Positions 22,667-61,287 of a stretch of 64,000 bases of DNA are shown piece by piece. Positions within the stretch are counted from its first letter, which is position 1, and each line of letters opens with the position of its first letter. This DNA is from Nocardioides aquaticus (GTDB taxonomy: Bacteria; Actinomycetota; Actinomycetes; Propionibacteriales; Nocardioidaceae), in NCBI RefSeq assembly GCF_018459925.1, contig NZ_CP075371.1:992001-1056000 (forward strand). The letters are read 5' to 3'. The notes below the pieces were generated by a model, which saw only the letters and a program-made list of their open reading frames with translations, was not told where the DNA came from and ran no database searches. The position numbers and the translations under genes were made by a program.

Positions 22667-22728
22667 CCGAGATAACGCTCGCGGACAGCCGAGATGGCGG
22701 TTCCGGCGCCTCGAGGTGACGGCTCCGG
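22667..22728. repeat. Dispersed 3 x 22-bp intergenic element, copy 1 (degenerate)
   Basis: Units begin at 22667, 22689 and 22711. The first is CCGAGATAACGCTCGCGG; the second and third carry several changes (GCGGTTCCGG, GACGGCTCCGG). It lies between convergent genes. Confidence 0.8.
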
Positions 22729-22734
22729 CGGGGC

Positions 22735-23091
22735 TCAGCCGCGCCACGACCCGAGCGCGCCGAGCGGGGCCGCGACGGTGTCGGTCTCCTCGCAGACCCA
22801 GTGCGCGTCCGGCCCGCCGAGGTCGGGCTGGATGTAGAGCGCGTGCTCCGGGGCGTCCTCGCAGCCCAGGCACAGCGGCCACCGGCCGACCGTGTCGAGC
22901 AGCGCGTCCTGGACGTCCTGCGCGACGAGCCCGGCGACGTACACCTCGCCGGCCGGCCACTGCTCGGCCCACCAGGTACGCGAGGAGCAGGCCTCCTCGA
23001 GCGCGGAGACGGCGGCGGGGCTGGCCTGGCGCCGCGCCTCCAGATCGGCCAGGACGCGCGCGCGGGCGGCGAGGATGAGGGCGACGTCCAT
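22735..23091 (-). CDS. Conserved-looking hypothetical protein
   Basis: 118 residues; no family recognised. The first ~45 residues are helical (ALILAARARVLADLEARRQAS...), followed by a Trp-rich stretch (RTWWAEQWPAGEVYVAGL) and a C-terminal part with four cysteines, including CLGCED and HWVCEETD, which could bind a metal. A CAGACT hexamer six bases before the ATG supports this start and a leaderless mRNA. It is divergent from cutC. Its coding status rests on frame, start context and base use; its function is unknown. Confidence 0.65.
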   Translation of the reverse strand: MDVALILAARARVLADLEARRQASPAAVSALEEACSSRTWWAEQWPAGEVYVAGLVAQDVQDALLDTVGRWPLCLGCEDAPEHALYIQPDLGGPDAHWVCEETDTVAAPLGALGSWRG

Positions 23092-23145
23092 GGGCCAAGT
23101 CTGCGTGGCCGGGCAAGGCGCCCCGGCGAGCGGCCCGCGACGGCC

Positions 23146-23151
23146 TACCCT
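23146..23151 (+). promoter_or_regulatory. -10 element of a leaderless cutC transcript
   Basis: TACCCT is followed by six bases and the ATG of cutC, with no Shine-Dalgarno. Confidence 0.45.
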
Positions 23152-23157
23152 GGCGCC

Positions 23158-23949
23158 ATGAGCGACGTCGCGGCCGGGGGCCACCCGGGCTCCGCCGGGC
23201 CGCTGCCGGTCCGGGGCCTGCTGGAGGTCGCCGTGACCCACCCGCGCGACGTGCCGGGGTGCGTCGAGGGCGGGGCCGACCGGCTCGCCGTGGTCGCGCC
23301 GGGGGCGTCGTACGCCACCGCGCCCGAACCGGCCCTCGTCTCGGCCGTCGCCCGGTCCAGCGGGCTGCCGGTACGCGCCCTGCTGCGCCTGCCGCCCGCC
23401 GACGGCGCCGCACCGTACGCCGCCGACCCGGCCTCCCTGGACCAGCTCGCGGACCTCGCCCGGGAGTACGTCGCGCTGGGCGCCGAGGGCGTCGTGCTCG
23501 GCTTCCTCGACGCCGACCTCGAGGTCGACGTGTGGGCCTGCCGCCGGCTGCTGGCCGCGGTGCCGGGGACGCCCTGGACCTTCCACCGCGCCATCGACGA
23601 CACCCTCGACCCGGTCCGCTCCTGGGGCCGCGTGGTCGACCTGCCCGGGGTCACCTCGGTGCGCTCCGGTGGCTCCCCGCAGGGCCTCGCGCACGGCTAC
23701 GAGGACCTCCTCGCCCTGGCCCGGCGGTCCCTCGAGGTCGCCCGGCTGCTGATGCCGGCCGGCGGGCTGTCCGCCGAGCACGTCCCGTGGTTCGCCCGCG
23801 AGGGCGTCCGCCAGCTCCACCTCGGCACCCAGGTCCGCCCCGGTGCGAGCTACCGCTCCTACGTCGACGCGGGGTACGTGCGCTCGTGGCGGCGCCTGCT
23901 CGACGACGCCGTCGACCGCGACCAGCGCACCGACTGGGCCGGCACGTGA
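23158..23949 (+). CDS. cutC: CutC family protein
   Basis: 263 residues with the CutC TIM-barrel signatures: LLEVAVTHPRDVPGCVEGGADRLAV at the N-terminus, EGVVLGFLDADLEVD, TFHRAIDDT and SVRSGGSPQGLAHGYEDL. It is named for copper homeostasis, but the biochemical role is not established. A ~15-residue extra N-terminal segment precedes the barrel. Its stop overlaps the next gene by GTGA. Confidence 0.87.
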   Translation: MSDVAAGGHPGSAGPLPVRGLLEVAVTHPRDVPGCVEGGADRLAVVAPGASYATAPEPALVSAVARSSGLPVRALLRLPPADGAAPYAADPASLDQLADLAREYVALGAEGVVLGFLDADLEVDVWACRRLLAAVPGTPWTFHRAIDDTLDPVRSWGRVVDLPGVTSVRSGGSPQGLAHGYEDLLALARRSLEVARLLMPAGGLSAEHVPWFAREGVRQLHLGTQVRPGASYRSYVDAGYVRSWRRLLDDAVDRDQRTDWAGT

Positions 23950-24206
23950 TCCTGATCGACCCCCCGCTGGTGGAGTGGCGCGGGAAGCGGTGGTCGCACC
24001 TGGCCTCCGACACCTCCTTCGAGGAGCTGCACGCCTTCGCCCGGGAGGCCGGGATCCCCGAGCGCGGCTTCGACCGCGACCACTACGACGTGCCCGAGGA
24101 GTGGCACGCCGACGTCGTCGCACGCGGCGCCGTCGAGGTGACCTCGCGGGTGCTGGTGGTCGCGCTGGTGCGCGCCGGGCTGCGGCGCCGCAAGAGCCAG
24201 GCCTGA
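23946..24206 (+). CDS. DUF4031 domain protein
   Basis: 86 residues: MILIDPPLVEWRGKRWSHLASD, ELHAFAREAGIPERGFDRDHYDVPEEW. This is the whole DUF4031 domain, a small family of unknown function found in many actinobacteria. The GTG start overlaps the cutC stop by 4 bp, so the two are co-translated. Confidence 0.82.
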   Translation: MILIDPPLVEWRGKRWSHLASDTSFEELHAFAREAGIPERGFDRDHYDVPEEWHADVVARGAVEVTSRVLVVALVRAGLRRRKSQA

Positions 24207-24214
24207 GGGCCCGT

Positions 24215-24228
24215 CGACCGGCCGGTCG
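24215..24228. terminator. 14-bp palindrome between convergent genes
   Basis: CGACCGGCCGGTCG is a perfect palindrome in the 35-base gap between DUF4031 and the HD gene. A weak bidirectional terminator is possible. Confidence 0.3.
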
Positions 24229-24241
24229 CCCCGGCCCGGGG

Positions 24242-24913
24242 TCAGGCCCGGGAGACCACCACCTCGGGCTGCAGCCGGTCGAGCTCGGCGAGCACGTTGG
24301 ACCGCGCGGTCTCCTCCCACGCCGCAGCGGCGCGGGCGGTGTGGAAGAGCCGCGGCTTGGCGAGCAGGTCGACCAGGACCGCGGCCCGCCCCCGGGCGAA
24401 GTCCTCGTCCCCGACGTGGGCGTACTCCCGGCGCACCGCTGCGACGTACTCGGCGTACCGCTCCGGCCCAGCCGCCAGGATGGCCAGGTCGGCGTCCGAG
24501 AGCGCGCAGCCCGCGGCGTCGTCCTCGGCGGGCGCGTGGGTCTCGGTCATCCGGACCAGGCGGGCGACCTCGGCCACCACGTCGTCGGCCACGAGGCCGG
24601 GCAGGGCGTGCTCGGCCCAGGAGGCCGAGCGCTCCTCGGCGTCGCGCTCGCCGTCGTACACGCCGTCGTGGAACCACGCCGCGAGGCGGACGGCGGTGTC
24701 GTCGGCACCGGGATCCTCGGTCAGGTCGTCGAGCCGGGCGAGGACCTCGTCGAGGTGGCGCAGGTCGTGGTAGCTGCGGTCGCTGCCGCCGTAGGCCGCC
24801 AGCAGCTCGGCCCGCAGCGCCTCGGCGGCGGGGTCCGGGTGGTCGGCCAGCGGCCAGGGCAGGGCGTGCGGCGCGCGCGGGCGGTCCCGCGGGGGATGGT
24901 CGGCGTCGGGCAT
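24242..24913 (-). CDS. HD-domain metal-dependent phosphohydrolase-like protein
   Basis: 223 residues. HDLRHLDEVLARLDDL and RLAAWFHDGVYDGERDAEERSA give the H...HD metal-binding core; MTETHAP follows further on. This small-HD group is widespread in actinobacteria and uncharacterised; nucleotide hydrolysis is a family-level guess. The ATG follows the MpaB-family stop by 8 bases with AGGA close upstream, so it is the second gene of a pair. Confidence 0.82.
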   Translation of the reverse strand: MPDADHPPRDRPRAPHALPWPLADHPDPAAEALRAELLAAYGGSDRSYHDLRHLDEVLARLDDLTEDPGADDTAVRLAAWFHDGVYDGERDAEERSASWAEHALPGLVADDVVAEVARLVRMTETHAPAEDDAAGCALSDADLAILAAGPERYAEYVAAVRREYAHVGDEDFARGRAAVLVDLLAKPRLFHTARAAAAWEETARSNVLAELDRLQPEVVVSRA

Positions 24914-24921
24914 CGTCCTAT

Positions 24922-25791
24922 TCAAACAGCCTGGGGCTCCTCGAGCGCAGCCGGCGGCGACATCGCCCAGCGGATCGTGCCGGTCGCCACGGACCCGAGG
25001 ACGCGGACCACGGTCCGCTCGGTGACCGGCAGCCGCGGCAGCCGCAGGGGCAGCCGCGTCCAGCCCGGCATCAGGCCGACGGCGGCGGCGCACAGCACGG
25101 CGTACGGAGCCCGCGCGGCCAGCGGGAGCGGAGGCTTCAGCAGCAGGTAGCGGACGGCCTCCCGGGCCTCCTGGGTCCCGCGCAGCTCGGGTCGGAAGGC
25201 GGCCATCCGCTCGTCCAGCTCGGCCTCGGTCCGCGGCGGGTCGACCACCCCGAGACGGGCGGCGACCTCGCCGACCTGGGCCACGTAGGTGTCGCGCTCG
25301 TCCTGGGTCAGCGTGGCCGCGCCGTAGACGGTGAAGGCGTGGAGGAAGCTGTCCACCTCGGCGACGTGCACCCACATCAGCAGGTGCGGGTCCGAGGCGG
25401 CGTAGGCCGAGCCGTCGGGCATCGTCCCGGTGACGCGGCGGTGGATCGAGCGCACGACGTCGACGGAGCGCTGCGCGTCCTCGGCGGTGCCGAAGGTGGT
25501 CACCGCGAGGTAGTGGCTGGTGCGCGCCAGCCGCCCCCACATGTCGCCGCGGTAGCCCGAGTGGTCCGAGACGGCCTTCATCGCGGCCGGGTGCAGCGTC
25601 TGCAGCAGCACCGCCCGCAGGCCGCCCACGAACATGGAGGCGTCGCCGTGGACGACGTGGATCGGGCTGCCGGGCTCGAACCAGCGCTCGCCCTCGGAGC
25701 CGTGGATCCGCTCGCGGTGCTGCGGCCCGTCGGGTCCGGCCACCCGGGCGAAGATCGCCTCGCCGAGCCGGTTGCGCACGCCCTGCATCAT
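24922..25791 (-). CDS. Oxygenase MpaB family (DUF2236) protein
   Basis: 289 residues with the DUF2236/latex-clearing-protein-like core: VHGDASMFVGGLRAVLLQTLHPAAMKAVSDHSGYRGDMWGRLART, where histidines are potential haem ligands, and DPHLLMWVHVAEVDSFL. Members include rubber oxygenase Lcp and fungal MpaB; most bacterial ones are unassigned. I chose the ATG at 25791 because TAGCGT lies seven bases upstream. Longer starts would run into the rtcB terminator hairpin. Confidence 0.83.
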   Translation of the reverse strand: MMQGVRNRLGEAIFARVAGPDGPQHRERIHGSEGERWFEPGSPIHVVHGDASMFVGGLRAVLLQTLHPAAMKAVSDHSGYRGDMWGRLARTSHYLAVTTFGTAEDAQRSVDVVRSIHRRVTGTMPDGSAYAASDPHLLMWVHVAEVDSFLHAFTVYGAATLTQDERDTYVAQVGEVAARLGVVDPPRTEAELDERMAAFRPELRGTQEAREAVRYLLLKPPLPLAARAPYAVLCAAAVGLMPGWTRLPLRLPRLPVTERTVVRVLGSVATGTIRWAMSPPAALEEPQAV

Positions 25792-25805
25792 GCTCACGAC
25801 GCTAC

Positions 25806-25855
25806 CCGTCGCCACCACCACCCCCGGCGGCCGTCAGGGGTGGTGGTGGCGACGG
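25806..25855 (-). terminator. rtcB terminator hairpin
   Basis: A perfect 19-bp stem (CCGTCGCCACCACCACCCC and its complement) with a 12-base loop begins 23 bases after the rtcB stop. It is among the strongest hairpins in the window and also limits how far upstream the next gene can start. Confidence 0.75.
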
Positions 25856-25877
25856 TGGGGCGCGGTCCGGGGTCGGC

Positions 25878-27047
25878 TCAGTCGCCCTTGACGTTGACCA
25901 GCTGGCGCAGCACGTGGCGCACCTCGACCAGGTCGGCGGCGTCGGCCATCACCTGGTCGATGTCCTTGTAGGCCGCCGGGATCTCGTCGAGGAACGCCTC
26001 GCTGTCGCGCCACTCGATCCCGGTCATCGCCTCCCGCAGCTGCTCGCGGCTGAAGGTGCGCCGGGCCCGCGAGCGGGAGTACGCGCGACCCGCGCCGTGG
26101 GGCGCCGAGCGCAGCGCGACGGGGTCGCCGCGACCCGTGACGACGTACGACGCGGTGCCCATCGACCCGGGGATCAGCCCGGGCCTCCCGGCGGAGGCGT
26201 CGATGGCGCCCTTGCGCGAGAGCCACACGTCGCGCCCGAAGTGCCGCTCGCGCTCGGTGTAGTTGTGGTGGCAGTTGACCTCCTCGGTGCGCTGCACCGC
26301 GGTGCCGGTCCACTCCTCCACCTGCCGCACGACCCGGTCCATCATCTCCTCGCGGTTGAGCAGCGCGTAGTGCTGCGCCCACCGCATCTGGGCGACGTAG
26401 GCGTCGAACGCGTCGGTGCCCTCGACGAGGTACGCCAGGTCGCGGTGGGGCAGCGGCACCCACCACTGCTCGCACAGCCGGCGGGCCACGCCGATGTGGT
26501 GCTGGGCGATCTTGTTGCCCACCCCGCGCGAGCCGGAGTGCAGGAACAGCCAGACGCGGTCGACCTCGTCGACGGAGATCTCGATGAAGTGGTTGCCCGA
26601 GCCGAGGGTCCCCAGCTGCAGCTCCCACCGCTTCGCGTAGGTCGCGGGGTCGAAGCCGGCCTCGGCGGCCGCGGCGGCGAGGACCTCCAGGCGGGCCCGG
26701 GTGTGCTCGCGGCTGACCGTGCGGTTGGCGCCCCCGGCGGAGACCGGGACAGCCCGCTCGACCTGCTGGCGCACGGTGCCGAGGTCCTCGGGCAGCTCGT
26801 CGCGGGTCAGCTGGGTGCGGACCGCGATCATGCCGCAGCCGATGTCGACGCCGACCGCGGCCGGCATGATCGCGCCGAGGGTCGGGATGACCGACCCGAC
26901 GGTCGCGCCCAGGCCCAGGTGGGCGTCGGGCATCAGCGCGACGTGGGGGTGCACGAACGGCATCGAGGCCGTCGTCACCGCCTGCTCGCGGGTGCCCTGC
27001 TCGAGCTCGGAGGCCCAGCTCAGCAGGGTGGGGGTGATCTTCTCCAT
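25878..27047 (-). CDS. rtcB: RtcB family RNA-splicing ligase
   Basis: 389 residues. Metal- and GTP-binding motifs are intact: ALMPDAHLGLGATVG, VGVDIGCGM, LGTLGSGNHF, LHSGSRGVGN, VNCHHNY and SAPHGAGRAYSR, which holds the histidine that becomes guanylylated. RtcB joins 2',3'-cyclic phosphate (or 3'-phosphate) RNA ends to 5'-OH ends in tRNA repair. No archease or rtcA gene is adjacent. GGAAGG precedes the ATG, so unlike many neighbours this gene has a leader. A terminator follows. Confidence 0.93.
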   Translation of the reverse strand: MEKITPTLLSWASELEQGTREQAVTTASMPFVHPHVALMPDAHLGLGATVGSVIPTLGAIMPAAVGVDIGCGMIAVRTQLTRDELPEDLGTVRQQVERAVPVSAGGANRTVSREHTRARLEVLAAAAAEAGFDPATYAKRWELQLGTLGSGNHFIEISVDEVDRVWLFLHSGSRGVGNKIAQHHIGVARRLCEQWWVPLPHRDLAYLVEGTDAFDAYVAQMRWAQHYALLNREEMMDRVVRQVEEWTGTAVQRTEEVNCHHNYTERERHFGRDVWLSRKGAIDASAGRPGLIPGSMGTASYVVTGRGDPVALRSAPHGAGRAYSRSRARRTFSREQLREAMTGIEWRDSEAFLDEIPAAYKDIDQVMADAADLVEVRHVLRQLVNVKGD

Positions 27048-34008: not shown

Positions 34009-34070
34009 CCGAGATGACGCTCGCGGACAGCCGAGATGACGCTCGCGGCGCGTCGAGGTGACGCTCGCGG
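34009..34070. repeat. Dispersed 3 x 22-bp intergenic element, copy 2
   Basis: Units at 34009, 34031 and 34053; the first two are identical (CCGAGATGACGCTCGCGG), the third is TCGAGGTGACGCTCGCGG. It directly abuts the stop codon of the helicase-associated gene. Confidence 0.9.
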
Positions 34071-36365
34071 TCAGTCCGGGACGGCCTGGACCGAGTGGAT
34101 CCGGTGCACCGCGAAGGAGCGGACGTCGTCGGCGCGGTGGTCGTAGGCCACCAGGCTGCCGCCCTCGACCGAGCGCGGGTCGACCAGCCGGTCCGAGCGG
34201 GTGCCCTGGTTGTCGACGTAGGTGATCAGCACCGCCTCCCCGGCCTCGACGGCCTCCCGCAGCGCGGTGAGCGCCCCCGACGGCGTGAGCGAGGCCGGTG
34301 CGGCGCCGACGGACCCGGCGTCGCCGCCCGTACGCACGCGTCCGGCCCGGTCGCCGGAGCGGACCGCGCTGACCACGGCCCCGGCGGCGGCGCCCTGGCG
34401 GGCCGAGCGCACGGCGGTCGTCCGTTCCCTTGGGGCCCGCGCCCGCAGCAGGTCGGGCCGCGTCACCTGCACGGTGCCGTCGGCGGCCTCGACCACGGGC
34501 GCCGCGCCGAGCTCGCGCAGCCGGGGGAGGAGGACGTCGAGCGGGGTGTCGCTGACGACCACGGTCGGGGCGATCCGGCGCAGCCCGAGCGCGCCGGCCT
34601 TGGGGTGGTGGACCAGCGTGGTGAGCGCGGCCTCGTCGTCGGAGCGCAGGAACGCCTCGGCGTGCCCGAGCCGGACCGTGCCGTAGGTGCGGACCGTGTC
34701 GTCGACCAGGTAGGTCAGCGGCTGCGGCACCGGGGTCCGCGAGATGGTGCCGAGGAACTCGTGCACCTCCGCGGCCGACCAGCCCACGTCGAGGGCGCGG
34801 CGCACCGAGGCCGGGGTGAAGCGGTAGGTGGTGGCGCCGCCGCGCGACTCCACGTCGGCCAGCAGCTGCAGGCGGCGGGCCAGCGACGACTCCAGCGGGC
34901 CGGGAGCGACGGCGGTGAGGTCGGCCTGCACCAGGACGTGGTCGACCGGCTCGGGCAGCAGGTCGTCCAGGACCGGGCCCGGGTCCTCCCCGGCGACGAG
35001 CAGCGCCGCGTACGACGCGAGCCCGCCGAGCGCGACCAGGCCCAGCGACGCGGCCTCGGTGAGGGCGTCGGCGAGCTCCTGCTCGCGTGCCGCCGGCCGC
35101 CGGGGACGCAGCCACCGCACCCGGGAGACCAGGGAGGGCACGCCGGTGCCCGCGGCCAGCACCGTGCCGTCCTCGAGACCGTGCAGCGCGGCCAGGGCCA
35201 TCGCGCGGGACTCGGTGACGGTGCGGCTGGTCAGGCCCGGGGCCAGCGCGTTGCGGGGCTTGTCGGCCTCGTCCCGGCTGCCGACCAGCGCGGGGGCGCG
35301 CGGCGTGGTCAGCCAGGCCCGGGCCAGCGCGGCCCAGCGGGTGGCGGTGACCTGGGTCGACCAGGCGTCGAAGGCGTCGGTGGGCACCCACAGGGCGTTG
35401 CCGTCGCCGCCGGCGCGCTGGGCCAGCAGCCCGGCCGCGCCCGCGACCTCGACCAGCAGCGCCGCGGTCGGCTCGTCGACGTGCAGCAGCCGCGCGGTGG
35501 CCTTGAGGTCGCGCACCCCGAGCCCGCCGCTGCGCAGCGCCGGCGCCGGGTCGGTGCCCCAGTGGTCCAGGAGCAGCTCGACGCGGCGCACCGTCTCGAA
35601 CGCGGCGCCCGCGGCGGTGCGGTCGACCAGGGCGGGGGAGCGCTCGGCGGTCGCGAGCGGGGGGACGGTGTCGACCGGGTCGCGGGTGGTCCGGGCGCCG
35701 CGGAGGGCCAGGCCGACCTGGCCGGGCAGGACCACCGCGGACCCGCCGCGGGAGACCAGCAGCCGTCGGGCCAGCAGCTCCTCGGCCGGGGTGGCGGCCT
35801 CCTCGGTCGTCACCCGCAGCCGCGAGGCGCCGGACGTCGCCTGGCCGCCGGAGCCCTCGACGTGGTCAAGCAGGGCCCGCGCGGGCGCGGAGAGCTGGGC
35901 GAGCAGCGCCGGAACCTCGTCCGCCGCGGGCGCCTCGGCGGCCGGCGGGAGCAGCCCGCTCACGGCCGCCCAGGTCGGGGCGAGGGCCAGGCCCTCGGCC
36001 ACGCCGGACAGGGCCCGCACCCCGGTCGGCGTCCACCAGGCCAGGGCCAGGTCGACGACCCGGTCCAGCGCGGCGCCGGCCGCGGCCTCGTCGGCGTGCA
36101 CGACCGCGAGCACCTCCTCGCGGGTGGCGGGGCCGACCACGGCGACCGCGTCGAGCACGTGCAGCTCGAGCCGGTCGAGCAGGTCCAACGCCCGGAGCAG
36201 CGAGACCCGTACGGTGGCCCTCGACGCCAGCTGACCGAAGTCGTGAGGAGCCGGGGTGGCCAGATCGGGACGTGCGAGGAGCAGCCGGGTGAGACGTTCG
36301 TCGTCCCACCCGCGCAGCTGGTCGGCCAGGGAGCGGTGCCCCGGGGCCTCGGTCGGAGTGCCCAT
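34071..36365 (-). CDS. Helicase-associated (Helicase_C_3 / XPB-Ssl2-like) protein with WYL-like C-terminus
   Basis: 764 residues. The N-terminal half is helical and carries repeated winged-helix-like segments. The middle has the Helicase_C_3 region (VLVQADLTAVAPGPLESSLARRLQLLADVESRGGATTYRFTPASVRRALD). The last ~70 residues (ALREAVEAGEAVLITYVDNQGTRSDRLVDPRSVEGG...HRIHSVQ) resemble a WYL ligand-binding domain. No ATPase motifs are present, so it is an accessory, not a helicase. It pairs with the XPB gene just downstream in many actinobacteria. TAACGT seven bases before the ATG supports the start at MGTPTEAPGHRS; a much longer in-frame reading upstream crosses PP2C and FHA coding and was rejected. 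Confidence 0.85.
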   Translation of the reverse strand: MGTPTEAPGHRSLADQLRGWDDERLTRLLLARPDLATPAPHDFGQLASRATVRVSLLRALDLLDRLELHVLDAVAVVGPATREEVLAVVHADEAAAGAALDRVVDLALAWWTPTGVRALSGVAEGLALAPTWAAVSGLLPPAAEAPAADEVPALLAQLSAPARALLDHVEGSGGQATSGASRLRVTTEEAATPAEELLARRLLVSRGGSAVVLPGQVGLALRGARTTRDPVDTVPPLATAERSPALVDRTAAGAAFETVRRVELLLDHWGTDPAPALRSGGLGVRDLKATARLLHVDEPTAALLVEVAGAAGLLAQRAGGDGNALWVPTDAFDAWSTQVTATRWAALARAWLTTPRAPALVGSRDEADKPRNALAPGLTSRTVTESRAMALAALHGLEDGTVLAAGTGVPSLVSRVRWLRPRRPAAREQELADALTEAASLGLVALGGLASYAALLVAGEDPGPVLDDLLPEPVDHVLVQADLTAVAPGPLESSLARRLQLLADVESRGGATTYRFTPASVRRALDVGWSAAEVHEFLGTISRTPVPQPLTYLVDDTVRTYGTVRLGHAEAFLRSDDEAALTTLVHHPKAGALGLRRIAPTVVVSDTPLDVLLPRLRELGAAPVVEAADGTVQVTRPDLLRARAPRERTTAVRSARQGAAAGAVVSAVRSGDRAGRVRTGGDAGSVGAAPASLTPSGALTALREAVEAGEAVLITYVDNQGTRSDRLVDPRSVEGGSLVAYDHRADDVRSFAVHRIHSVQAVPD

Positions 36366-39135: not shown

Positions 39136-39717
39136 GTGACCCAGGTCTGGTACGTCTCCTACGGCTCGAACATGTCCGCGGCCCGCCTCGCCTGCTACCT
39201 CGAGGGCGGCTGCCCGCCGGGCGGCTCGGCGGCCAACCCGGGCGCGCGCGACCGCACCCTGCCGACCCGCTCGGTGCCGGTGGACCTGCCCGGGACGACG
39301 TACTTCGCCGGCGACTCGCCGCAGTGGGGCGGCGGGGTGGCGTTCTACGACCACGACACCCCGGGGCGGACGGCCGCGCGCGGCTACCTGGTCACCCGCC
39401 AGCAGCTCGCCGACATCGCCGCGCAGGAGATGTACCGCGTCCCCGCCGACGGCGACCCGCTCGAGCAGGTGCTCCTCGAGCCGCTGCCGGCGGGCCGGCA
39501 CACCGTCGGCCCCGGCCACTACGAGACGCTGGTCGAGGTGGGCCGCCACGAGGGCCTGCCGATGATCACCTTCACCTCCCCGCACGGCACCCACGCCGTG
39601 GAGCACGTCGCGCCGGGCCAGGCCTACCGCGACACCCTGGCCACCGGGCTGCGGGAGAGCCGTGGGTGGGACCAGGCGCGCTCGGCGGCCTACCTGGACG
39701 CCCTCCTGCCGAGATGA
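39136..39717 (+). CDS. YGSNM-type protein (gamma-glutamylcyclotransferase-fold-like)
   Basis: 193 residues. The N-terminus VWYVSYGSNMSAARLACYLEGG carries the YGSN(M) motif of the gamma-glutamylcyclotransferase fold, but the rest (ALYDHDT-like VAFYDHDTPGRTAARGYLVTRQQLADI) is its own actinobacterial group. Some relatives carry odd automatic names. Activity is unknown. TACCGT lies eight bases before the GTG, suggesting a leaderless mRNA. The stop codon TGA lies inside the first unit of a dispersed repeat element, so the last codons come from the repeat. Confidence 0.75.
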   Translation: MTQVWYVSYGSNMSAARLACYLEGGCPPGGSAANPGARDRTLPTRSVPVDLPGTTYFAGDSPQWGGGVAFYDHDTPGRTAARGYLVTRQQLADIAAQEMYRVPADGDPLEQVLLEPLPAGRHTVGPGHYETLVEVGRHEGLPMITFTSPHGTHAVEHVAPGQAYRDTLATGLRESRGWDQARSAAYLDALLPR

Positions 39718-39770
39718 CGCTCGCGGACAGCCGAGATGACGCTCGCGGACGGTCGAGGTGACGCTCGCGG
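39709..39770. repeat. Dispersed 3 x 22-bp intergenic element, copy 3
   Basis: Units at 39709, 39731 and 39753, nearly identical to copy 2; the third is followed by ACAGCCCCGG. It overlaps the 3' end of the YGSNM gene and supplies its stop codon. Confidence 0.9.
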
Positions 39771-47429: not shown

Positions 47430-48908
47430 GTGACGCACACGCCCAGCGCCCCCGCCGCGCGCCCCACCGGCCTGGACCGGTTCTTCTCCATCTCGGTCCG
47501 TGGCTCCACCCTCGGCCGCGAGCTGCGCGGGGGAGTGGTGACCTTCGTGACGATGGCCTACATCGTGGTGCTGAACCCGCTGATCCTCGGGTTCGTGCCC
47601 GACATCGACGGGCAGTACCTCGGGGGCGGCACCGAGCCCAACCTCCCCGCGATCGCCGCCGGTACGGCGCTGGTGGCCGGGGTGATGAGCATCCTGATGG
47701 GCACGGTGGCCAACTTCCCGCTGGCGATCGCCACCGGGCTCGGGCTGAACGCGTTCGTCGCGGTCGCCATCGCGACCCAGATGACCTGGGCCGACGCGAT
47801 GGGCCTGGTGGTGATCGAGGGCCTGCTGATCCTGGTGCTGGTGCTGACGGGGTTCCGGGCGGCGGTCTTCCGGGCCGTGCCCGGGCAGCTGAAGGTCGCC
47901 ATCTCGGTCGGGATCGGGCTGTTCATCGCGCTGATCGGCTTCGTCGACGCCGGTTTCGTCTCCCGCATCCCCGACGTCGCGCAGACCACCGTCCCGGTCC
48001 AGCTCGGCACCGGCGGGCAGCTGCAGGGCTGGCCGGTCGCGGTCTTCGCGATCGGGCTCGTCCTGGTCGTCGCGCTGTGGGTGCGCCGGGTGCGGGGGGC
48101 GATCCTGATCGCGATCGCCGCCGCGACCGTGCTGGCCGTGGTGGTCGAGGCCGTGCTCGACCTGGGCTCGGCCGCGGACAACGGCCCCGGCGGCTGGATC
48201 CTGACCGTGCCGAGCCTGCCGGACTCCGTCGGCTCCCTGGCCGCGCTGCCCGACTTCGGCACGCTGGGGGAGTTCAACCTGCTGGGGTCCTTCGACCGGA
48301 TCGGCCTGGTCGCCGCGCTGCTGCTGGTCTTCAGCCTGATGCTGGCCGACTTCTTCGACACCCTCGGCACGATGACCGCGATCGGGGCCGAGGCCGGGCT
48401 CCTCGACGAGGACGGCGCGCCCCCGCGCACCCAGCAGATCCTGGTCGTCGACTCCGTGGCCGCGGTCGCCGGCGGCGTCGGTGGGGTCTCGTCCAACACC
48501 AGCTACATCGAGTCCGCCGCCGGGGTCGGCGAGGGCGCCCGTACGGGCCTGGCCTCGGTGGTCACCGGCGTGCTGTTCCTGCTGACGGTCTTCCTGGCCC
48601 CGCTGGTCGCGGTCATCCCGTCGGAGGCGGCCGTCCCCGCCCTGGTGCTGGTGGGCTTCCTGATGATGCAGCAGGTCGGCGAGATCACCTGGTCGGACCC
48701 GGAGATCGCGATCCCGGCCTTCCTGACCATCGTGCTGATGCCGTTCACCTACTCGATCAGCGTCGGCATCGGCGCCGGGTTCGTCGCCTACGTGCTGATC
48801 AAGCTGGTGCTGGGCAAGCCCCGCGAGATCCACCCGCTGATGGGCCTGGTGGCCGTGCTGTTCCTGGTCTACTTCGCGATCGAGCCCCTCACCGCGCTGC
48901 TCACCTGA
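47430..48908 (+). CDS. NCS2-family purine (adenine/guanine/hypoxanthine) permease
   Basis: 492 residues, about twelve to fourteen membrane helices. AzgA/PbuG-type motifs: GGVVTFVTMAYIVVLNPLILG, NFPLAIATGLGLNAFVA, VGIGLFIALIGFVDAGFV, MLADFFDTLGTMTAIGAEAGL and GVSSNTSYIESAAGVGEGARTGLASVVTG. It imports purine bases by proton symport. CACCCT six bases before the GTG suggests a leaderless transcript. A dispersed repeat follows the stop. Confidence 0.92.
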   Translation: MTHTPSAPAARPTGLDRFFSISVRGSTLGRELRGGVVTFVTMAYIVVLNPLILGFVPDIDGQYLGGGTEPNLPAIAAGTALVAGVMSILMGTVANFPLAIATGLGLNAFVAVAIATQMTWADAMGLVVIEGLLILVLVLTGFRAAVFRAVPGQLKVAISVGIGLFIALIGFVDAGFVSRIPDVAQTTVPVQLGTGGQLQGWPVAVFAIGLVLVVALWVRRVRGAILIAIAAATVLAVVVEAVLDLGSAADNGPGGWILTVPSLPDSVGSLAALPDFGTLGEFNLLGSFDRIGLVAALLLVFSLMLADFFDTLGTMTAIGAEAGLLDEDGAPPRTQQILVVDSVAAVAGGVGGVSSNTSYIESAAGVGEGARTGLASVVTGVLFLLTVFLAPLVAVIPSEAAVPALVLVGFLMMQQVGEITWSDPEIAIPAFLTIVLMPFTYSISVGIGAGFVAYVLIKLVLGKPREIHPLMGLVAVLFLVYFAIEPLTALLT

Positions 48909-48911: not shown

Positions 48912-48973
48912 CCGAGATGACGCTCGCGGACAGCCGAGATGACGCTTGCGGCGCGTCGAGATGCCGTTCGCGG
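48912..48973. repeat. Dispersed 3 x 22-bp intergenic element, copy 4
   Basis: Units at 48912, 48934 and 48956, with single changes in the second (GCTTGCGG) and several in the third. It follows the permease stop by 3 bases and precedes the BAAT-like gene. Confidence 0.9.
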
Positions 48974-48990
48974 CGTGCCAGGCTGGCCCG

Positions 48991-49814
48991 GTGCTGCCCG
49001 CGACGTGCCTGAGCCTGCACCGGCCGACCCGCCCCACGGGTGCCGCGGTGCTGGTCCTCGCCGGCTCGAGCGGAGCACGGGAGGACGAGCGGGCCGGTCT
49101 CCTCGCCGAGCACGGCGCCGTGGCGCTGGCGCTGCGGTGGTTCGGCGGCCCGGGACAGCAGCCGGGGCCGTACGAGGTCCCGCTCGAGACCTTCCACGAG
49201 GCGGTCGACCTGCTCGAGCAGGAGGGTGAGCGCCTCGGGGTCCTGGGCTCGTCCTTCGGCGCGGAGGCCGCGCTCCTGGCCGCAGCCCGCGACCTCAGGA
49301 CGGTCCACGTCGCGGCGCTGGCCCCCACCCCGGTGGTGTGGTCCGGCGTCGACGAGGTCACCGGGCGGGGGACCTCGCACTGGACCTGGGGCGGGGAACC
49401 GGTGCCGTACGTCCCGTTCGACGCGGCGTGCTCGCCGAGCACCGACCCGCCCTCCTTCCGCCCCCTCTACGAGCAGAGCCTGCGCACCGCCGCGGACCGG
49501 GTCCCCGCCGCGACCATCGCCGTCGAGGAGATCGGCGGCGACGTGCTGGTGGTCGGTGGCGAGGACGACCAGGTCTGGCCGGGGGCCGACTTCGCCCGGG
49601 CGGTGGCCGACCGGCGGAGCCCCACGGGCTCGACACCGCGGTGGTCACCGCGCCCGCGGCCGGCCACCGGGTCGTCCTGCCGGGGGAGCGTCCCGTACGC
49701 CGGGGGCGCGTCATGACCCGCGGCGGCACCCCGGCCGCCGACGCCGCGCTCGGCCTCGCGGCCTGGCCGCACCTGTGCCGCGTGCTCGGGCTCCGGGCCG
49801 AGGGGGCCCGATGA
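48991..49814 (+). pseudogene. Acyl-CoA thioesterase/BAAT-like hydrolase with one-base frameshift
   Basis: An alpha/beta hydrolase of the bile-acid-CoA:amino-acid acyltransferase (BAAT) C-terminal family. The nucleophile elbow is LGSSFGAEAALLAA and the acid loop VVGGEDDQVWPGADFARAVADRRSP. After a C-run at 49620-49623 the open frame turns to unrelated residues and stops at 49716. The -1 frame instead continues HGLDTAVVTAPAAGHRVVLPGE...GGTPAADAALGLAAWPHLCRVLGL to 49814, which is the expected family end with the catalytic histidine, and its stop overlaps the GNAT ATG as ATGA. One added C would restore a ~274-residue enzyme. It is either a sequencing error in a homopolymer or a real inactivation. 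The GTG start has CAGGCT six bases upstream. Confidence 0.8.
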
Positions 49815-50299
49815 CCACCCCGCTCGCCACGCTCGACCCGGGCCCGCGCCGCTACGCCGTGCACCGCGCCCGCCGCGCGGACGTCCCGGCCCTGGTCGCC
49901 CTGCTGCGCGACGACCCGCTCGGCCGTACTCGGGAAGGAGTCGACCTCGGACCGTACGAGACCGCCTTCGAGGCCGTCGACCGCGACCTGGCGCACCTGC
50001 TGGTCGCCGTCCGGGACACCGACGACGCGGTGGTCGCGACCCTCCAGCTCACGCTGCTCCCGGGGTTGTCGCGCGCGGGCGCGACCCGCCTGCAGGTCGA
50101 GGGCGTGCGCGTCCGCGCCGACGCCCGCGGCGCAGGACTGGGCGCGGCGCTGCTGACCTGGGCGGTCGCGTGGGGCCGGGACCACGGAGCGACGCTGGCC
50201 CAGCTGACGACCGATGAGCAGCGCCCCGCCGCCCGCCGCTTCTACGAGCGGCTCGGCTGGGTGGCCACCCACACCGGCATGAAGCTCCCCCTGGTCTGA
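49811..50299 (+). CDS. GNAT-family N-acetyltransferase
   Basis: 162 residues. RYAVHRARRADVPALVALLRDD at the start, then VEGVRVRADARGAGLGAALLTWAVAWGRDHGA, the acetyl-CoA-binding R/GxGxG/A loop, and QLTTDEQRPAARRFYERLGWVATHTGMKLPL. This is a complete small GNAT of the RimI/marbostat-like class with unknown substrate. The ATG overlaps the stop of the restored BAAT frame by 4 bp, showing the two were one operon. Confidence 0.87.
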   Translation: MTTPLATLDPGPRRYAVHRARRADVPALVALLRDDPLGRTREGVDLGPYETAFEAVDRDLAHLLVAVRDTDDAVVATLQLTLLPGLSRAGATRLQVEGVRVRADARGAGLGAALLTWAVAWGRDHGATLAQLTTDEQRPAARRFYERLGWVATHTGMKLPLV

Positions 50300-50361
50300 C
50301 CGCGAGCGTCACCTCGGCGCGCCGAAACCGTCATCTCGGCTGTCCGCGAGCGTCACCTCGG
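50300..50361. repeat. Dispersed 3 x 22-bp intergenic element, copy 5 (reverse orientation)
   Basis: Units at 50300, 50322 and 50344 read as CCGCGAGCGTCACCTCGG; the middle one is degenerate. It starts immediately after the GNAT stop. Confidence 0.88.
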
Positions 50362-57522: not shown

Positions 57523-58364
57523 CGGGTCAGCCGCTCGCGGAAGGCCCGCTCACGGCCCAGCCGCGCCTGGTCGCGCTCGCGCCTGGTCGCGACCACGGCG
57601 GCCAGCACGGCCGCCGGCGGCGCGTCGGCCGGCGGGGGCGGGGCGACGTACGGCGCGACCTGCGCCCACAGCGCGTCACCGACGCGGGTGCGGGAGACCG
57701 GGTCCATGGTGGCCAGCCGCCCGAGGTACTGCCGGACGGCGAGCGCGAGGCCGGTCGGCAGGGCGGACACGTCGGCCGCGCGGGCCCACCCGGCCAGCGG
57801 CGGCGGCATCGCCGGCGGCGCGGGCAGGCTGAGCCGGAACCGGTCGCGCACGACGTACGTGCCGGCCGCCAGGTCGCCGAGCCGCTTGCCGCGACCGTTG
57901 ACCAGCGCGGTGAAGAACGCCGGGGTGCCGAGCAGCACGTAGAGCTCCACGACGCCGATCAGCGACCGGGTGAACGCGTGCTGGAAGGAGATCGGCCCGG
58001 CGTCGTCGCGCACGGTGCGCAGCCCCAGGGCGAGCTTGCCCAGCGTGCGGCCCCGGGTGAGGGTCTCCATCGTGGTCGGGAAGACCAGCAGCACCGACAC
58101 GAGGGTGCCGATCGAGGCCACGGTCAGCAGGGCCTCGTCGGTCTGCAGCGCGGCCAGCGTGAAGACGAACAGCGCCACCAGCAGCAGCACCAGCGCGACC
58201 ACCAGGTCGATCGTCCCGGACGCGATCCGCGCCCCGAGGCCGGCCGGCGGGAGGTCGAGCGCCACGGCCTCGCCGGTGACCAGGTCGTCGCTGGTGACGG
58301 TGGCGAGCTCGGGCGCGCGGGGCGCGGTGGCGGGTCCGGCCGGAGGGCCTGCGGGCGTCGACAT
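57507..58364 (-). CDS. RDD-family membrane protein
   Basis: 285 residues. The RDD domain begins PPAGLGARIASGTIDLVVALVLLLVALFVF and continues with a second helix, TRGRTLGKLALGLRTVRDDAG and RSLIGVVELYVLLGTPAFFTALVNGRGKRLGDLAAGTYVVRDR. The ~110-residue C-terminal part is a cytoplasmic helical region (VRQYLGRLATMDPVSRTRVGDALWAQV). The family is linked with SpoIIM, MoxR and DUF58 genes; all are here within 6 kb. It is divergent from the SpoIIM-like gene with 20 bases between. Confidence 0.88.
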   Translation of the reverse strand: MSTPAGPPAGPATAPRAPELATVTSDDLVTGEAVALDLPPAGLGARIASGTIDLVVALVLLLVALFVFTLAALQTDEALLTVASIGTLVSVLLVFPTTMETLTRGRTLGKLALGLRTVRDDAGPISFQHAFTRSLIGVVELYVLLGTPAFFTALVNGRGKRLGDLAAGTYVVRDRFRLSLPAPPAMPPPLAGWARAADVSALPTGLALAVRQYLGRLATMDPVSRTRVGDALWAQVAPYVAPPPPADAPPAAVLAAVVATRRERDQARLGRERAFRERLTRQRAV

Positions 58365-58372
58365 GGTGGACC

Positions 58373-58379
58373 TAGGCTA
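58373..58379. promoter_or_regulatory. Shared -10 elements for divergent RDD and SpoIIM-like genes
   Basis: CCTAGGCTAG (58371-58380) supplies TAGGCT on the + strand, six bases before the GTG at 58385, and TAGCCT on the - strand, nine bases before the ATG at 58364. Both transcripts should start at or near their start codons from overlapping -10 boxes. Confidence 0.55.
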
Positions 58380-58384
58380 GCGGC

Positions 58385-59380
58385 GTGGACCTCGACGCGT
58401 ACGTGCTCGAGCACGCCGGCCAGTGGCAGCGTCTCGAGCAGCTCACCCGGCGCGGCAGGCTGACCGGTGCCGAGGCCGACGAGCTGGTCGAGGCCTACCA
58501 GCGCGTCGCCACCCACCTCTCCGTGGTGCGCACGCAGGCGCCGGACGCCCAGGTCGTGGCCTACCTGTCGGTGCTGCTCGCCCGGGCGCGGACCCGGGCC
58601 GCGGGCACCCGGGTCGGCACCTGGCGGGCCGTGCGCAGCTTCGTGACCGAACGGTTCCCGGCTGCGCTCTACCGGCTGCGCTGGTGGTGGCTGGGCTGCC
58701 TGGCCGGCAACGTCGTGGTGACCGGCGTGATGATGCTGTGGCTGCTGGCGCACCCCGACGTCGAGCAGAGCCTGCTCAGCCCGGCCGAGATCGACCAGCT
58801 GGTGCAGGAGGACTTCGCGGGCTACTACAGCCAGTACGCCGCGGGCAGCTTCGCCACCCAGGTCTGGGTCAACAACGCCTGGGTGACCGCGCTGTGCCTC
58901 GCGCTCGGGGTGCTCGGCCTGCCCGTGCTCTGGTTGCTGTTCCAGAACATGGCCAACCTGGCGGTGATCGGCGCGATCATGACGCGCAACGACGCGGGCC
59001 TGCAGTTCTGGGGCCTGCTGCTGCCGCACGGGCTGCTGGAGCTCACCGCGGTCTTCGTGGCCGCCGGGGTCGGGCTGCGGCTGTTCTGGTCCTGGGTGTC
59101 CCCGGGCAGCCTGAGCCGGAGCCGCTCGATGGCCCGCGAGGGGCGTACCGCCGCGACCGTGGCCCTCGGCCTGGTCGGGGTGCTGCTCGTCAGCGGGCTG
59201 ATCGAGGGGTTCGTGACGCCCTCGGGACTGCCCACCTGGGCCCGCCTGGCGATCGGCGTGCTGGCCGAGCTGGTCTTCCTGGCCTACGTCTTCGTCCTCG
59301 GCCGGGCCGCCGTCCGCCGCGGCCACACCGGCGACCTCGGCGCCGACCTGCTCGAGGACACGGTGGCCACGCGTGCCTGA
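58385..59380 (+). CDS. Stage II sporulation protein M-like membrane protein
   Basis: 331 residues. An N-terminal cytoplasmic helical region (WQRLEQLTRRGRLTGAEADELVEAYQRVATHLSVVR) precedes about six membrane helices, including WWWLGCLAGNVVVTGVMMLWLL and QFWGLLLPHGLLELTAVFVAAGVGLRLFWSWVSPG, the SpoIIM signature. Outside spore formers the role is unknown; it may regulate cell-envelope or compartment hydrolases. The stop overlaps the next ATPase start by 8 bases, so the three genes form one operon. Confidence 0.88.
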   Translation: MDLDAYVLEHAGQWQRLEQLTRRGRLTGAEADELVEAYQRVATHLSVVRTQAPDAQVVAYLSVLLARARTRAAGTRVGTWRAVRSFVTERFPAALYRLRWWWLGCLAGNVVVTGVMMLWLLAHPDVEQSLLSPAEIDQLVQEDFAGYYSQYAAGSFATQVWVNNAWVTALCLALGVLGLPVLWLLFQNMANLAVIGAIMTRNDAGLQFWGLLLPHGLLELTAVFVAAGVGLRLFWSWVSPGSLSRSRSMAREGRTAATVALGLVGVLLVSGLIEGFVTPSGLPTWARLAIGVLAELVFLAYVFVLGRAAVRRGHTGDLGADLLEDTVATRA

Positions 59381-60386
59381 CCCCAGCGCCCCATCGCCCG
59401 GGGCCGCCGTGGAGGTCCGCGACCTCGTCAAGCGCTACCCGAAGCGCCCGACCAACGCCGTCGACGGCGTCTCCTTCGCCGTCGCACCCGGGGAGATCTT
59501 CGGGCTGCTCGGGCCCAACGGCGCGGGGAAGACCACCACGATCGGGATCCTGACCACCCGGGTGGCGCTGACCTCGGGCTACGCCGGGGTCGGCGGCGTG
59601 GACGTGGCGGCGGACCCGGTCCGGGCGCGCACCGTGATCTCGGTCGTGCCCCAGCGGCCCAACCTCGACCGGTCGCTGAACGCCCGGCAGAACCTGCTCT
59701 TCCACGCCGCCTACCACGGGATGGGACGGGCCGAGCGGGGCCGACGGGCCGACGAGCTGCTCGAGCGGATGGGCCTGGGCGACCGCGGCAAGGACAAGGT
59801 CGACAACTACAGCGGGGGGATGGCGCAGCGCCTGCTGATCGCCCGCGCGCTGATGCACCGGCCGCAGGTGCTGTTCCTCGACGAGCCGAGCACGGGGCTG
59901 GACCCGCAGGCGCGGCTCTTCGTCTGGGACCAGGTGCGCGAGCTCCGCGCCGCCGGGACGACCGTGGTGGTCACCACCCACGACATGGACGAGGCCGCCG
60001 AGATCAGCGACCGGGTCGGGATCATGGACCACGGCACCCTGCTCGCCCTGGACACGCCCGACGCCCTGACCCGCACGCTGCCCGGGGACTCCACGGTCGA
60101 CCTCGTGCTGGGCGACGTCGCCGCCGCCCGGGAGCCCGACCTGCGCGACGCGCTGGGCGGCCTGACCGGCGTACGACGGGTGGAGGACGTGGGCGGGGAC
60201 GCCGCCCGGCCGCCGGGGGAGCGGGACCTGCGGGTACGGCTCTACCTCGACGTGCCCGGGGCGTCGGTGCTCGGGTCCGCCGCGGAGGCGGTCGAGCGGC
60301 ACGGCGCGCGGCTGCTGTCGGTGGCCCTGGGCGAGCCGACCCTCGAGGACGTCTTCATCTCGCTCACCGGGAGGGACCTGCGATGA
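59373..60386 (+). CDS. DrrA-type ABC transporter ATP-binding protein
   Basis: 337 residues. Walker A GPNGAGKTTTIGIL, signature NYSGGMAQR, Walker B VLFLDEPSTGLDPQAR and the switch VVTTHDMDEAAEISDRV. The C-terminal ~100 residues (RDALGGLTGVRRVEDVGG..., GEPTLEDVFISLTGR) are the DrrA-type extension. Such ATPases drive drug or polymer export with a two-part permease encoded next. GTG start. Confidence 0.9.
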   Translation: MPDPSAPSPGAAVEVRDLVKRYPKRPTNAVDGVSFAVAPGEIFGLLGPNGAGKTTTIGILTTRVALTSGYAGVGGVDVAADPVRARTVISVVPQRPNLDRSLNARQNLLFHAAYHGMGRAERGRRADELLERMGLGDRGKDKVDNYSGGMAQRLLIARALMHRPQVLFLDEPSTGLDPQARLFVWDQVRELRAAGTTVVVTTHDMDEAAEISDRVGIMDHGTLLALDTPDALTRTLPGDSTVDLVLGDVAAAREPDLRDALGGLTGVRRVEDVGGDAARPPGERDLRVRLYLDVPGASVLGSAAEAVERHGARLLSVALGEPTLEDVFISLTGRDLR

Positions 60387-61210
60387 CCGCGCCCACGGAA
60401 CCCGAGGCCGCCGCACTGGTGCCGGCGGCCCCACGCAGCCCGTCGGTCGGGAAGGCGTTCCTTGGCCTGCTGGGACGCGACGTCTTCGTCACCGGACGCG
60501 AGCTGGGCAGCTTCCTGGCCCAGGTGCTGCTGCAGCCGATCTTCCTGCTGTTCGTCTTCGGCAAGGTCCTCGGCGACCTCGGCTACGTCCAGGGCGGGTT
60601 CGAGCTGGTCCTGCTGCCGGGCGTGATCGCCTTCACCGGCTTCCTGACTGCGCTCCAGAACACCGCGCTGCCGCTGGTCATCGACTTCTCCTTCACCAAG
60701 GAGATCGAGGACCGGCTGCTCGCACCGCTGCCGACGTCCCTGGTGGCGGTCGAGAAGATCGTCTTCGCGACCCTGCGCGGGCTGATCGCCTCGGCGATGA
60801 TGTTCCCGCTCGGGCTGCTGATCCTGGGCTCGGTGCCGATCACCTGGGCGGCGGTGCCGCTGGTCTCGCTCGGGCTGGTCCTCGGCTCCCTGGTCGGGGC
60901 CGCGCTCGGGCTGGTCCTCGGCACGCTGGTCACCGCGTCGAAGATCAACGTGGTCTTCGCGGTCGTGCTGACGCCGCTGCTGTTCACCGGCTCGACCCAG
61001 TTCCCGTGGAGCCAGCTCGACGGCCTGCGGTGGTTCCAGGTGGTCTGCGCGCTCAACCCCCTGACGTACGTCAGCGAGCTGGTCCGCGGCCAGATGGTGC
61101 CGCAGGTCGAGTCGATCCCGGCGTGGGTGTGCCTGCTGGCCTGCGTGGGCTTCCTGGTGCTGTTCACCGCGGTCGGCCTGCGCGGCTTCCGCCGCCGCGC
61201 GGTCGACTGA
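60383..61210 (+). CDS. ABC-2 type export permease (DrrB-like)
   Basis: 275 residues, six membrane helices. After a short N-terminal region comes FLAQVLLQPIFLLFVFGKVLGDL, DFSFTKEIEDRLLAPLPTSLVAVEKIVFATLRGLIASAMMFPLGLLIL and LTPLLFTGSTQFPWSQLDGLRWFQVVCALNPLTYVSELVRG, the ABC2_membrane signature. The ATG overlaps the ATPase stop. Substrate unknown. A dispersed repeat follows. Confidence 0.9.
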   Translation: MTAPTEPEAAALVPAAPRSPSVGKAFLGLLGRDVFVTGRELGSFLAQVLLQPIFLLFVFGKVLGDLGYVQGGFELVLLPGVIAFTGFLTALQNTALPLVIDFSFTKEIEDRLLAPLPTSLVAVEKIVFATLRGLIASAMMFPLGLLILGSVPITWAAVPLVSLGLVLGSLVGAALGLVLGTLVTASKINVVFAVVLTPLLFTGSTQFPWSQLDGLRWFQVVCALNPLTYVSELVRGQMVPQVESIPAWVCLLACVGFLVLFTAVGLRGFRRRAVD

Positions 61211-61225
61211 GGGACGGTCCGGGCG

Positions 61226-61287
61226 CCGCGAGCGTCACCTCGAGGCGCCGCGAGCGTCATCTCGGCCGGTCGGGAGCGTCACCTCGT
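61226..61287. repeat. Dispersed 3 x 22-bp intergenic element, copy 6 (reverse orientation)
   Basis: Units at 61226, 61248 and 61270 read as CCGCGAGCGTCACCTCGA, CCGCGAGCGTCATCTCGG and a diverged third copy. It fills the gap between the convergent ABC permease and DUF58 genes and touches the DUF58 stop codon. Confidence 0.9.

Follow-up and report, generated by a model that had tools for sequence, protein, structure and literature searches.

We examined a 64,000-nucleotide stretch of the Nocardioides aquaticus chromosome, called the window below, and found that six copies of a dispersed intergenic element in it belong to a large family of arrays built from units that start exactly 22 bp apart. 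The period is exact, conservation is confined to a core within each unit, the arrays of N. aquaticus and of Nocardioides sp. AX2bis stand at stop codons, and the same period recurs in other species with other unit sequences. On this sequence evidence, there is about an even chance that the element is a functional array of phased binding sites for a protein at gene ends, which was copied and then kept by selection. The window corresponds to C1:992001-1056000 of the N. aquaticus genome (G000; one contig of 4,580,814 bases), and gene positions are those of our own codon-usage caller, without annotation. The six copies are as follows.

Element 1, 22667..22728, plus strand: units at 22667, 22689 and 22711.
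Element 2, 34009..34070, plus strand: three units; its 3' end abuts the stop of the minus-strand gene 34071-36365.
Element 3, 39709..39770, plus strand: three units; the plus-strand gene 39136-39717 uses the TGA of unit 1 (39715-39717) as its stop codon.
Element 4, 48912..48973, plus strand: three units; 4 bp past the stop of the plus-strand gene 47430-48908; left member of a facing pair.
Element 5, 50300..50361, minus strand: three units; its 3' end abuts the stop of the plus-strand gene ending at 50299; right member of the facing pair.
Element 6, 61226..61287, minus strand: three units; its 5' end abuts the stop of the minus-strand gene ending at 61287, at a convergent junction.

An earlier note on this DNA had reported six copies at gene ends. 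All six are present, with three units each at +0, +22 and +44, and each abuts a stop codon at 0–5 bp on at least one side or, at 39709, supplies the stop itself. Element 1 begins 5 bp past the stop of a plus-strand gene ending at 22662 and ends 6 bp ahead of the stop of a convergent gene starting at 22735. By our reading, one outgroup genome (G318) represents the empty state of this site, with both convergent stops 6 bp apart and no element. The genes on both sides of element 2 keep their order in five of six outgroup stretches, from genomes that lack the two-unit pattern described below. At up to three mismatches, YCGAGRTGACGCTCGCGG matched the window 19 times against 2.15 expected, a count reached by 0 of 100 shuffles. 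Sixteen of these matches are units of the six elements, and two units of the copy at 22667 exceed three mismatches.

Genome-wide searches showed that the same sequence family occurs in one further species, Nocardioides sp. AX2bis (G363). The unit, at up to two mismatches, matched the N. aquaticus genome 184 times on the forward and 167 times on the reverse strand (reversed control, 1+1). Single-unit matches numbered 5 to 30 in each of 87 other members of the genus and are probably coding background, and phased patterns were therefore used. Two units at 22-bp spacing, with up to three mismatches, gave 127+100 matches in N. aquaticus and 125+107 in AX2bis, none with the reversed controls and none in the other 339 of 341 family genomes. 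In a collection of one genome per species (84,980 species; records of the own genome possibly left out), the exact two-unit pattern was found only in records NZ_LR733215.1 and NZ_LR733230.1, both from AX2bis. We estimate roughly 140–160 elements in N. aquaticus; a count of 14 in 400 kb, taken as 20 stretches of 20 kb at even intervals, extrapolates to about 160, with wide error. The earlier note had expected very many copies genome-wide. The whole-genome search under a 22-bp constraint bore this out, with far more than six copies and the spacing kept, but the density suggested by the window was too high, the window being about 2.7-fold enriched. Strict three-unit copies crowd C1 at 0.5–1.5 Mb, where 29 of 56 distinct loci fall in 1.0 of 4.58 Mb (chi-square 38, 17 degrees of freedom). 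As to replichore bias, the GC skew of 20 stretches yielded no origin.

We next consider how the units are arranged, using 880 kb of N. aquaticus and 779 kb of AX2bis that were partly picked for holding elements. Among same-strand unit pairs (up to three mismatches each) at offsets of 12–43, 138 of 143 were exactly 22 apart in N. aquaticus, with 5 at all other offsets, as were 222 of 226 in AX2bis. The N. aquaticus sample held 66 elements, of which 51 had three units, 5 two, 6 four and 4 five; some four-unit chains contain a spurious last unit, as at 50300. The AX2bis sample held 97 elements, 67 of them with three units, and reversed controls gave 0 in both species. The unit core is CGAG-n-TGAC-n5-CGG-n5. 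The canonical element is polar: unit 1 carries the spacer ACAGC, unit 2 CGCGT or CGCCT, and unit 3 often GTT for CTC. Extra units are mostly of the first-unit type. We conclude from this polar order, together with the type of the extra units, that the copied entity was a composite of about 60 bp, with units gained or lost locally afterwards.

Comparison of the two species showed that most sites are shared. Of 46 N. aquaticus elements with both flanks placed in the AX2bis sample, 45 sites were occupied, and the reverse comparison gave 46 of 47; most copies therefore predate the split of the two species. For 12 of the remaining elements in N. aquaticus and 41 in AX2bis, neither flank was matched in the sampled part; for a further 8 and 9, only one flank matched or the two flanks matched in different places, and here the sampled sequence mostly continues but differs. 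Synteny breaks near elements showed no preferred side, either side being affected. In 43 aligned ortholog pairs, divergence was 9.4% in elements, 15.0% in intergenic flanks and 8.1% in coding flanks, and indels other than 22 bp occurred at 3.0, 15.0 and 2.1 per kb, respectively.

Within the elements, conservation was restricted to the core. In 23 ortholog pairs with three units in both species (20 other pairs were dropped for unequal or other unit number), CGAG-n-TGAC-n5-CGG diverged by 1.3% and the other positions by 15.0%. By position in the unit, changes numbered 3/276 in CGAG, 13/69 at the fifth base, 6/276 in TGAC, 7/69 at the tenth base, 48/276 at positions 11–14, 1/207 in CGG and 46/345 in the spacer. 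Core and non-core positions differ with a Fisher P of 3.6e-25. All 44 usable pairs gave 2.0% (28/1434) for the core and 16.4% (235/1429) for the other positions, and cross-species paralogs gave 1.8% and 24.5%. Judged from these alignments, the core is protected eight- to elevenfold. Since non-core divergence equals the intergenic 15.0%, non-core positions appear to drift as neutral sequence, whereas the core does not. At non-core positions, the true ortholog pairing was closer than all 2000 random pairings; these positions were thus inherited vertically, which argues against pure gene conversion. These results, together with the exact phasing and the recurrence of the period described below, support the earlier note's view of a structured element rather than a random duplication. 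They likewise support its proposal of a protein-binding array as far as the DNA is concerned; the protein itself is our inference.

The conservation pattern also bears on the possibility that the element is a purely selfish dispersed repeat, similar to a miniature inverted-repeat transposable element, which is moved in trans by a unit-recognising transposase, has no host function and settles at gene ends because they are harmless. An estimated 140–160 similar copies in N. aquaticus, a comparable count of pattern matches in AX2bis and no match to that sequence in the 339 other family genomes would fit such a repeat, as would the fact that unit sequences and sites in other species are particular to each. 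In AX2bis, copy 418151, which is missing from N. aquaticus, lies 12 bp away from a reverse copy that both species share, and most close pairs are arranged like transposon ends, facing each other across one or two genes (17 of 24 pairs, with none diverging). However, resident copies of a selfish repeat should decay evenly, and here decay falls mainly outside the core. In addition, no Y1 transposase was found (other transposases were not searched for), and no clear target duplication was seen at the single site examined. We consider this explanation somewhat unlikely.

A few sites differ between the species in other ways. N. aquaticus copy 881151 and AX2bis copy 2281171 have no counterpart, and in both cases the flanking DNA also differs. 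Within a few kb of the AX2bis-only element 2281171-2281253 (L093), compared with G000:C1:256929-258112, there is a rearrangement breakpoint, G000 253191 mapping elsewhere (L068); the opposite N. aquaticus site may be a deletion remnant. At G000:C1:900973-902824, two genes, by our reading without a family search a regulator and a hydrolase, separate a conserved gene from its element in N. aquaticus but not in AX2bis, reflecting gain or loss 3' of the element.

Mapping the copies to genes, as the earlier note had proposed, showed that they are mostly intergenic and at gene 3' ends. The 66 N. aquaticus elements occupy 28 convergent, 17 and 13 tandem and 8 divergent junctions, and 88 of the 97 AX2bis elements could be placed between two called genes. 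Convergent junctions were enriched in both species (28/66 elements against 149/813 junctions, P = 1.8e-5, in N. aquaticus; 43/88 placed elements against 145/695 junctions, P = 9e-8, in AX2bis). Where the upstream gene reads toward the element, unit 1 starts 0–6 bp past the stop, or the gene ends inside the element, in 36/41 cases in N. aquaticus and 59/65 in AX2bis. In tandem junctions with the element after its gene, the element is within 6 bp of the stop or across it in 11/13 and 20/22 cases, where uniform placement would give 2.9 and 2.7. The far side of such elements is free, over 28–395 bp in 11/13 N. aquaticus cases and 16–425 bp in 22/22 AX2bis cases, so placement at the stop is not just the result of a small gap. 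TAG stops were over-represented ahead of elements (9/26 against 115/844, P = 0.007). We rejected insertion at TGA or TAG as a bare sequence: a stop trinucleotide occurs in the 9 bp before the element in 4/25 cases without a co-oriented upstream gene, compared with 27/41 with one.

Stop codons also fall within the elements. Because 22 equals 1 modulo 3, three units put TGA in all frames, and the array might therefore act as a three-frame translational stop. Genes do end inside elements at −8, −30 and −52, which are the TGA of units 1, 2 and 3 (10/41 in N. aquaticus, 21/65 in AX2bis). Nevertheless, the TGA is equally kept where no gene reads in, TGAC showing 2/108 changes without an incoming gene and 4/168 with one, and TGA is missing at this position from the units of G018, G322, G291 and G021 (CGAGTCGGC). 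Equal conservation and TGA-less units elsewhere largely refute this function, which we regard as extremely improbable.

A position directly behind stop codons would also suit a transcription terminator or a 3'-untranslated-region element that works through RNA folding. Arrays of G018 and G322 do fold better than shuffles, with a mean z of −1.6 to −2.3 by strand (8 and 12 arrays). By contrast, the 66 N. aquaticus copies fold slightly worse than dinucleotide shuffles (mean z +0.43 on the plus and +0.36 on the minus strand), the six window copies plus one reverse strand gave z of −1.23 to +1.71, and G280 and the plus strand of G060 also lie above zero. No Rfam match at gathering scores was found in the window, and in tandem junctions both orientations to the gene are about equally used. 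An intrinsic terminator of a GC hairpin followed by a T run was not seen: the 66 N. aquaticus copies have no stable fold, and those of their 3' flanks that were inspected contain no T run. We therefore rejected folded RNA for N. aquaticus on its fold scores and regard it as very unlikely overall, although it may apply in G018 and G322.

A search of related Nocardioidaceae constrained to 22 bp, also proposed in the earlier note, showed that the period recurs with other unit sequences. An anchor pattern of three units CGAGNYGRCN5CGGN5, with up to three mismatches, was run on 341 family genomes, counting overlapping windows and not elements. It matched 20 genomes in five genera, 18 of them beyond N. 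aquaticus and AX2bis and with other unit sequences. Windows numbered 97+84 in AX2bis, 90+75 in N. aquaticus, 59+39 in G018, 30+45 in G322, 8+14 in G326, 10+8 in G021, 7+11 in G291, 6+12 in G280, 9+5 in G060, 3+7 in G067, 6+3 in G300 and one to four in nine genomes. The reversed control gave 0 except in G067 (17+14), G370 (1) and G236 (2), and G067 is therefore doubtful. Long 22-bp arrays occur in this genome at G067:C12:453362-453510 and on C27 (CGAGTCGGCGGTGCGGGAGGGC); the same genome matches the reversed control 31 times. Period 22 was the commonest of periods 13–42 in the stretches sampled from each array genome.

Wider searches extended this picture. A core-only pattern at up to two mismatches, run on the order (391 genomes), singled out G280 and G442, and ten other genomes had one chance-like match each. 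A related pattern, run on 394 genomes of the class, matched N. aquaticus, G021, G266, G370 and G798 (outside the order, one array); it gave only 8 windows in N. aquaticus and is hence insensitive. The family of arrays looks concentrated in Nocardioidaceae. Single 22-bp arrays with CGAG...C.....CGG frames occur outside it at G442:C1:1670503-1670563 and G798:C460:8711-8815. Three of four control outgroups have no 22-bp arrays, and two related ones (CGACCCGGC) occur in the fourth, G065, showing that the anchor pattern misses part of the family. These two arrays, L204 19449-19547 and L205 4650-4723, have a related unit of the CGACCCGGCGCAGATCTCGCGC type. As to a phage or plasmid origin, one 71-base copy was unmatched in plasmids or phages, and the exact two-unit pattern was unmatched in viral contigs. 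A viral contig, IMGVR_UViG_3300035185_000025 (L254 1448-1516), carries a 22-bp array that fits the anchor pattern with another unit.

The units of the relatives differ in sequence around a common frame. They read CGAGTCGGCnCnnnTGG in G018 and G322, CGAGTYGGnCCTCCCGGACCGT in G280 and CGAGTCGGCACTTCCGG in G291. In G018 and G322 the site layout is CGAGTCGGC-n5-TGG-n5, with positions 1–9 and 15–17 at 95–100% and variable positions between. G280 retains CGAG and GG, and G291 retains positions 1–9, with GG in only 74–78%. The stretches of other species were picked around array hits, and their density does not represent the genome as a whole. A script assigned array orientation; owing to the nearly palindromic core, the assignment is ambiguous in G060 and wrong for one G280 array (L240 about 10945). 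In another member of the genus, G288, a different repeat (GGTGGTTGAGGTGCGAGCGCAGCGAGCCTCGAAACCAC-type, two copies nearby) immediately follows, on C9 (L155 about 1910-2120), the ortholog of the gene ahead of element 4.

Most arrays stand without a close neighbour. Within N. aquaticus and AX2bis, we counted 24 close pairs (300–2500 bp), of which 17 face each other (plus, then minus), 7 run in the same direction and none diverge; this total is a hand-made union of the lists for the two species, with orthologous pairs counted once. Facing pairs usually enclose one or two genes, such as G000:C1 623894/625297 and 1040913/1042278, and facing or touching pairs recur in G291, G322, G021 and G280. The excess of facing pairs follows in part from arrays standing behind their own gene, but the excess over same-direction pairs remains. 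In the window, elements 4 and 5 enclose the following pair.

Two predicted genes (48961-49716 and 49811-50299), 48961..50299, plus strand: enclosed by elements 4 and 5.

The start of the first gene was probably called too early, because it overlaps element 4. Neither gene had a tblastn match in six outgroup stretches, each of which covers the place. Facing arrays might accordingly mark the ends of an inserted accessory-gene cassette, as site pairs flank mobile modules. The absence of these two genes from 6/6 outgroup stretches would suit this idea, as would pair 623894/625297, which encloses two genes unmatched in four outgroups; its flanking genes are adjacent in G065 and G013, at a distance of about 1.3 kb, and 5.5–5.9 kb apart in G318 and G040. 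However, pairs 630415 and 954685 enclose genes present in all four outgroups, many arrays are single, and the facing arrays of G291 touch, with nothing between them. The comparison with the four outgroups covered nine pairs, of which the other six were uninformative. Of the four informative pairs, two thus enclose genes missing from outgroups and two do not, and we consider cassette ends distinctly unlikely.

We return to an array of phased binding sites. Phased direct repeats, a protected core, no fold in N. aquaticus and a period that outlives the sequence are together like the sites of a multimerising protein, and we infer such a protein, its cooperativity, the boundary role and the mode of spread outlined here. 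Each 22-bp unit would be one sequence-specific binding site. As 22 bp is about two helix turns, neighbouring sites would lie on nearly the same face, and one predicted protein would fill two to twelve adjacent sites cooperatively. The arrays may have been copied to gene ends in the ancestor of N. aquaticus and AX2bis, followed by selection that preserved the binding core. The position at stop codons, in many cases between convergent genes, suggests a boundary role, probably the most likely job of the array: the bound multimer right behind the stop codon would form a gene-end boundary separating neighbouring, often convergent, transcription units. It is also conceivable, albeit unlikely, that Nocardioidaceae hold an undescribed boundary system in which a dedicated protein multimerises on 22-bp arrays at stops, insulates transcription units and co-diverges with the array sequence while the phasing stays fixed; looser stop placement in other species slightly lowered our estimate of this.

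Several observations weigh against a protein-binding array kept at gene ends. No candidate for the protein was identified, and guilt by association failed, because flanking genes are shared across species no more than by chance (1 ortholog pair against 1.2 expected). In tandem junctions there is no orientation bias (13 against 17 in N. aquaticus, 22 against 15 in AX2bis), although a polar roadblock would predict one, and 8/66 elements sit between divergent genes, away from any stop. Of 45 arrays of other species between called genes, 33 follow a co-oriented gene, and 13 of these 33 start −17 to +9 bp from its stop; arrays in G280, G291 and G060 are mostly farther from the stop and more loosely placed. 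Within G018 and G322, 8/15 arrays start 8 or 9 bp past the stop, behind TGACC. The GG block is not kept in every relative, being absent from G021. Unit number differs in 18/43 aligned ortholog pairs, including four units in AX2bis at the locus of element 3 and two at that of element 6, so the count is only loosely kept. Copies within a genome are similar, and some homogenising recombination may have occurred. Finally, elements were detected by a core-based pattern, although the extension tolerance (up to 6/17 mismatches per unit) is looser than neutral expectation.

Selfish debris is a common reading of dispersed bacterial repeats. In the present family, resident copies are conserved only in a core that resembles a binding site, and the 22-bp spacing outlives the sequence across relatives. 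A chromosomal system of binding arrays at gene ends thereby becomes a hypothesis open to test. Protein and sites may have co-diverged in several lineages, a natural experiment. Even as a purely selfish repeat, it would form a family with a mover that lands on stop codons in at least two species.

As far as the literature and database searches reach, no named family is known to fit, in agreement with the earlier note. The note's suggestion of a copied mobile repeat such as a repetitive extragenic palindromic (REP) family stood only in part, because the element is clearly dispersed but has no hairpin, no Y1 transposase was found for it, and most copies predate the AX2bis split. Like REP sequences and the bacterial interspersed mosaic elements formed from them, with their REP-associated tyrosine transposases (RAYT), the arrays are short, numerous, intergenic, mostly behind genes and dispersed in one lineage; unlike them, they consist of head-to-tail 22-bp direct units without a palindromic hairpin. 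The search for a RAYT that the note had proposed found none in N. aquaticus or AX2bis: Y1_Tnp (PF01797) was detected in 0/5 genomes (these two and three other species) and in 5/14 control genomes. With neither a fold nor a Y1 transposase found, we rejected REP/RAYT.

Tn7 and Mu ends carry several 22-bp transposase sites per end, and the ends face each other; of the close pairs of arrays, 17 of 24 face each other and none diverge, but most arrays lack a close neighbour. The arrays differ in being contiguous, with 2–12 units, and in standing at many gene ends. Pneumococcal BOX is likewise dispersed and composite, its inner units varying in number, and differs in unit length, sequence and RNA-folding ends. 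Mycobacterial interspersed repetitive units (MIRUs) are actinobacterial and intergenic, touch codons at gene borders and vary in unit number. MIRUs are described as inserting at start codons and carrying an open reading frame coupled to the next gene (PMC12548453). The arrays, by contrast, stand at stop codons with their 5' ends (36/41), and a TGA in nearly every unit closes each frame. The mycobacteriophage L5-type stoperators halt transcription from short intergenic spaces, where they serve as asymmetric binding sites for a protein (PMC9283540, PMC6550527). On the phage genomes, these sites of 13 to 14 bp are aligned with the direction of transcription. Our arrays also stand in short intergenic spaces, but they are phased, lie on a bacterial chromosome and have no orientation bias in tandem junctions, which is evidence against a polar roadblock like the stoperator. 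They differ from a CRISPR array in that their variable stretches are 5 bp long and shared among copies, and not unique spacers of 20 bp or more.

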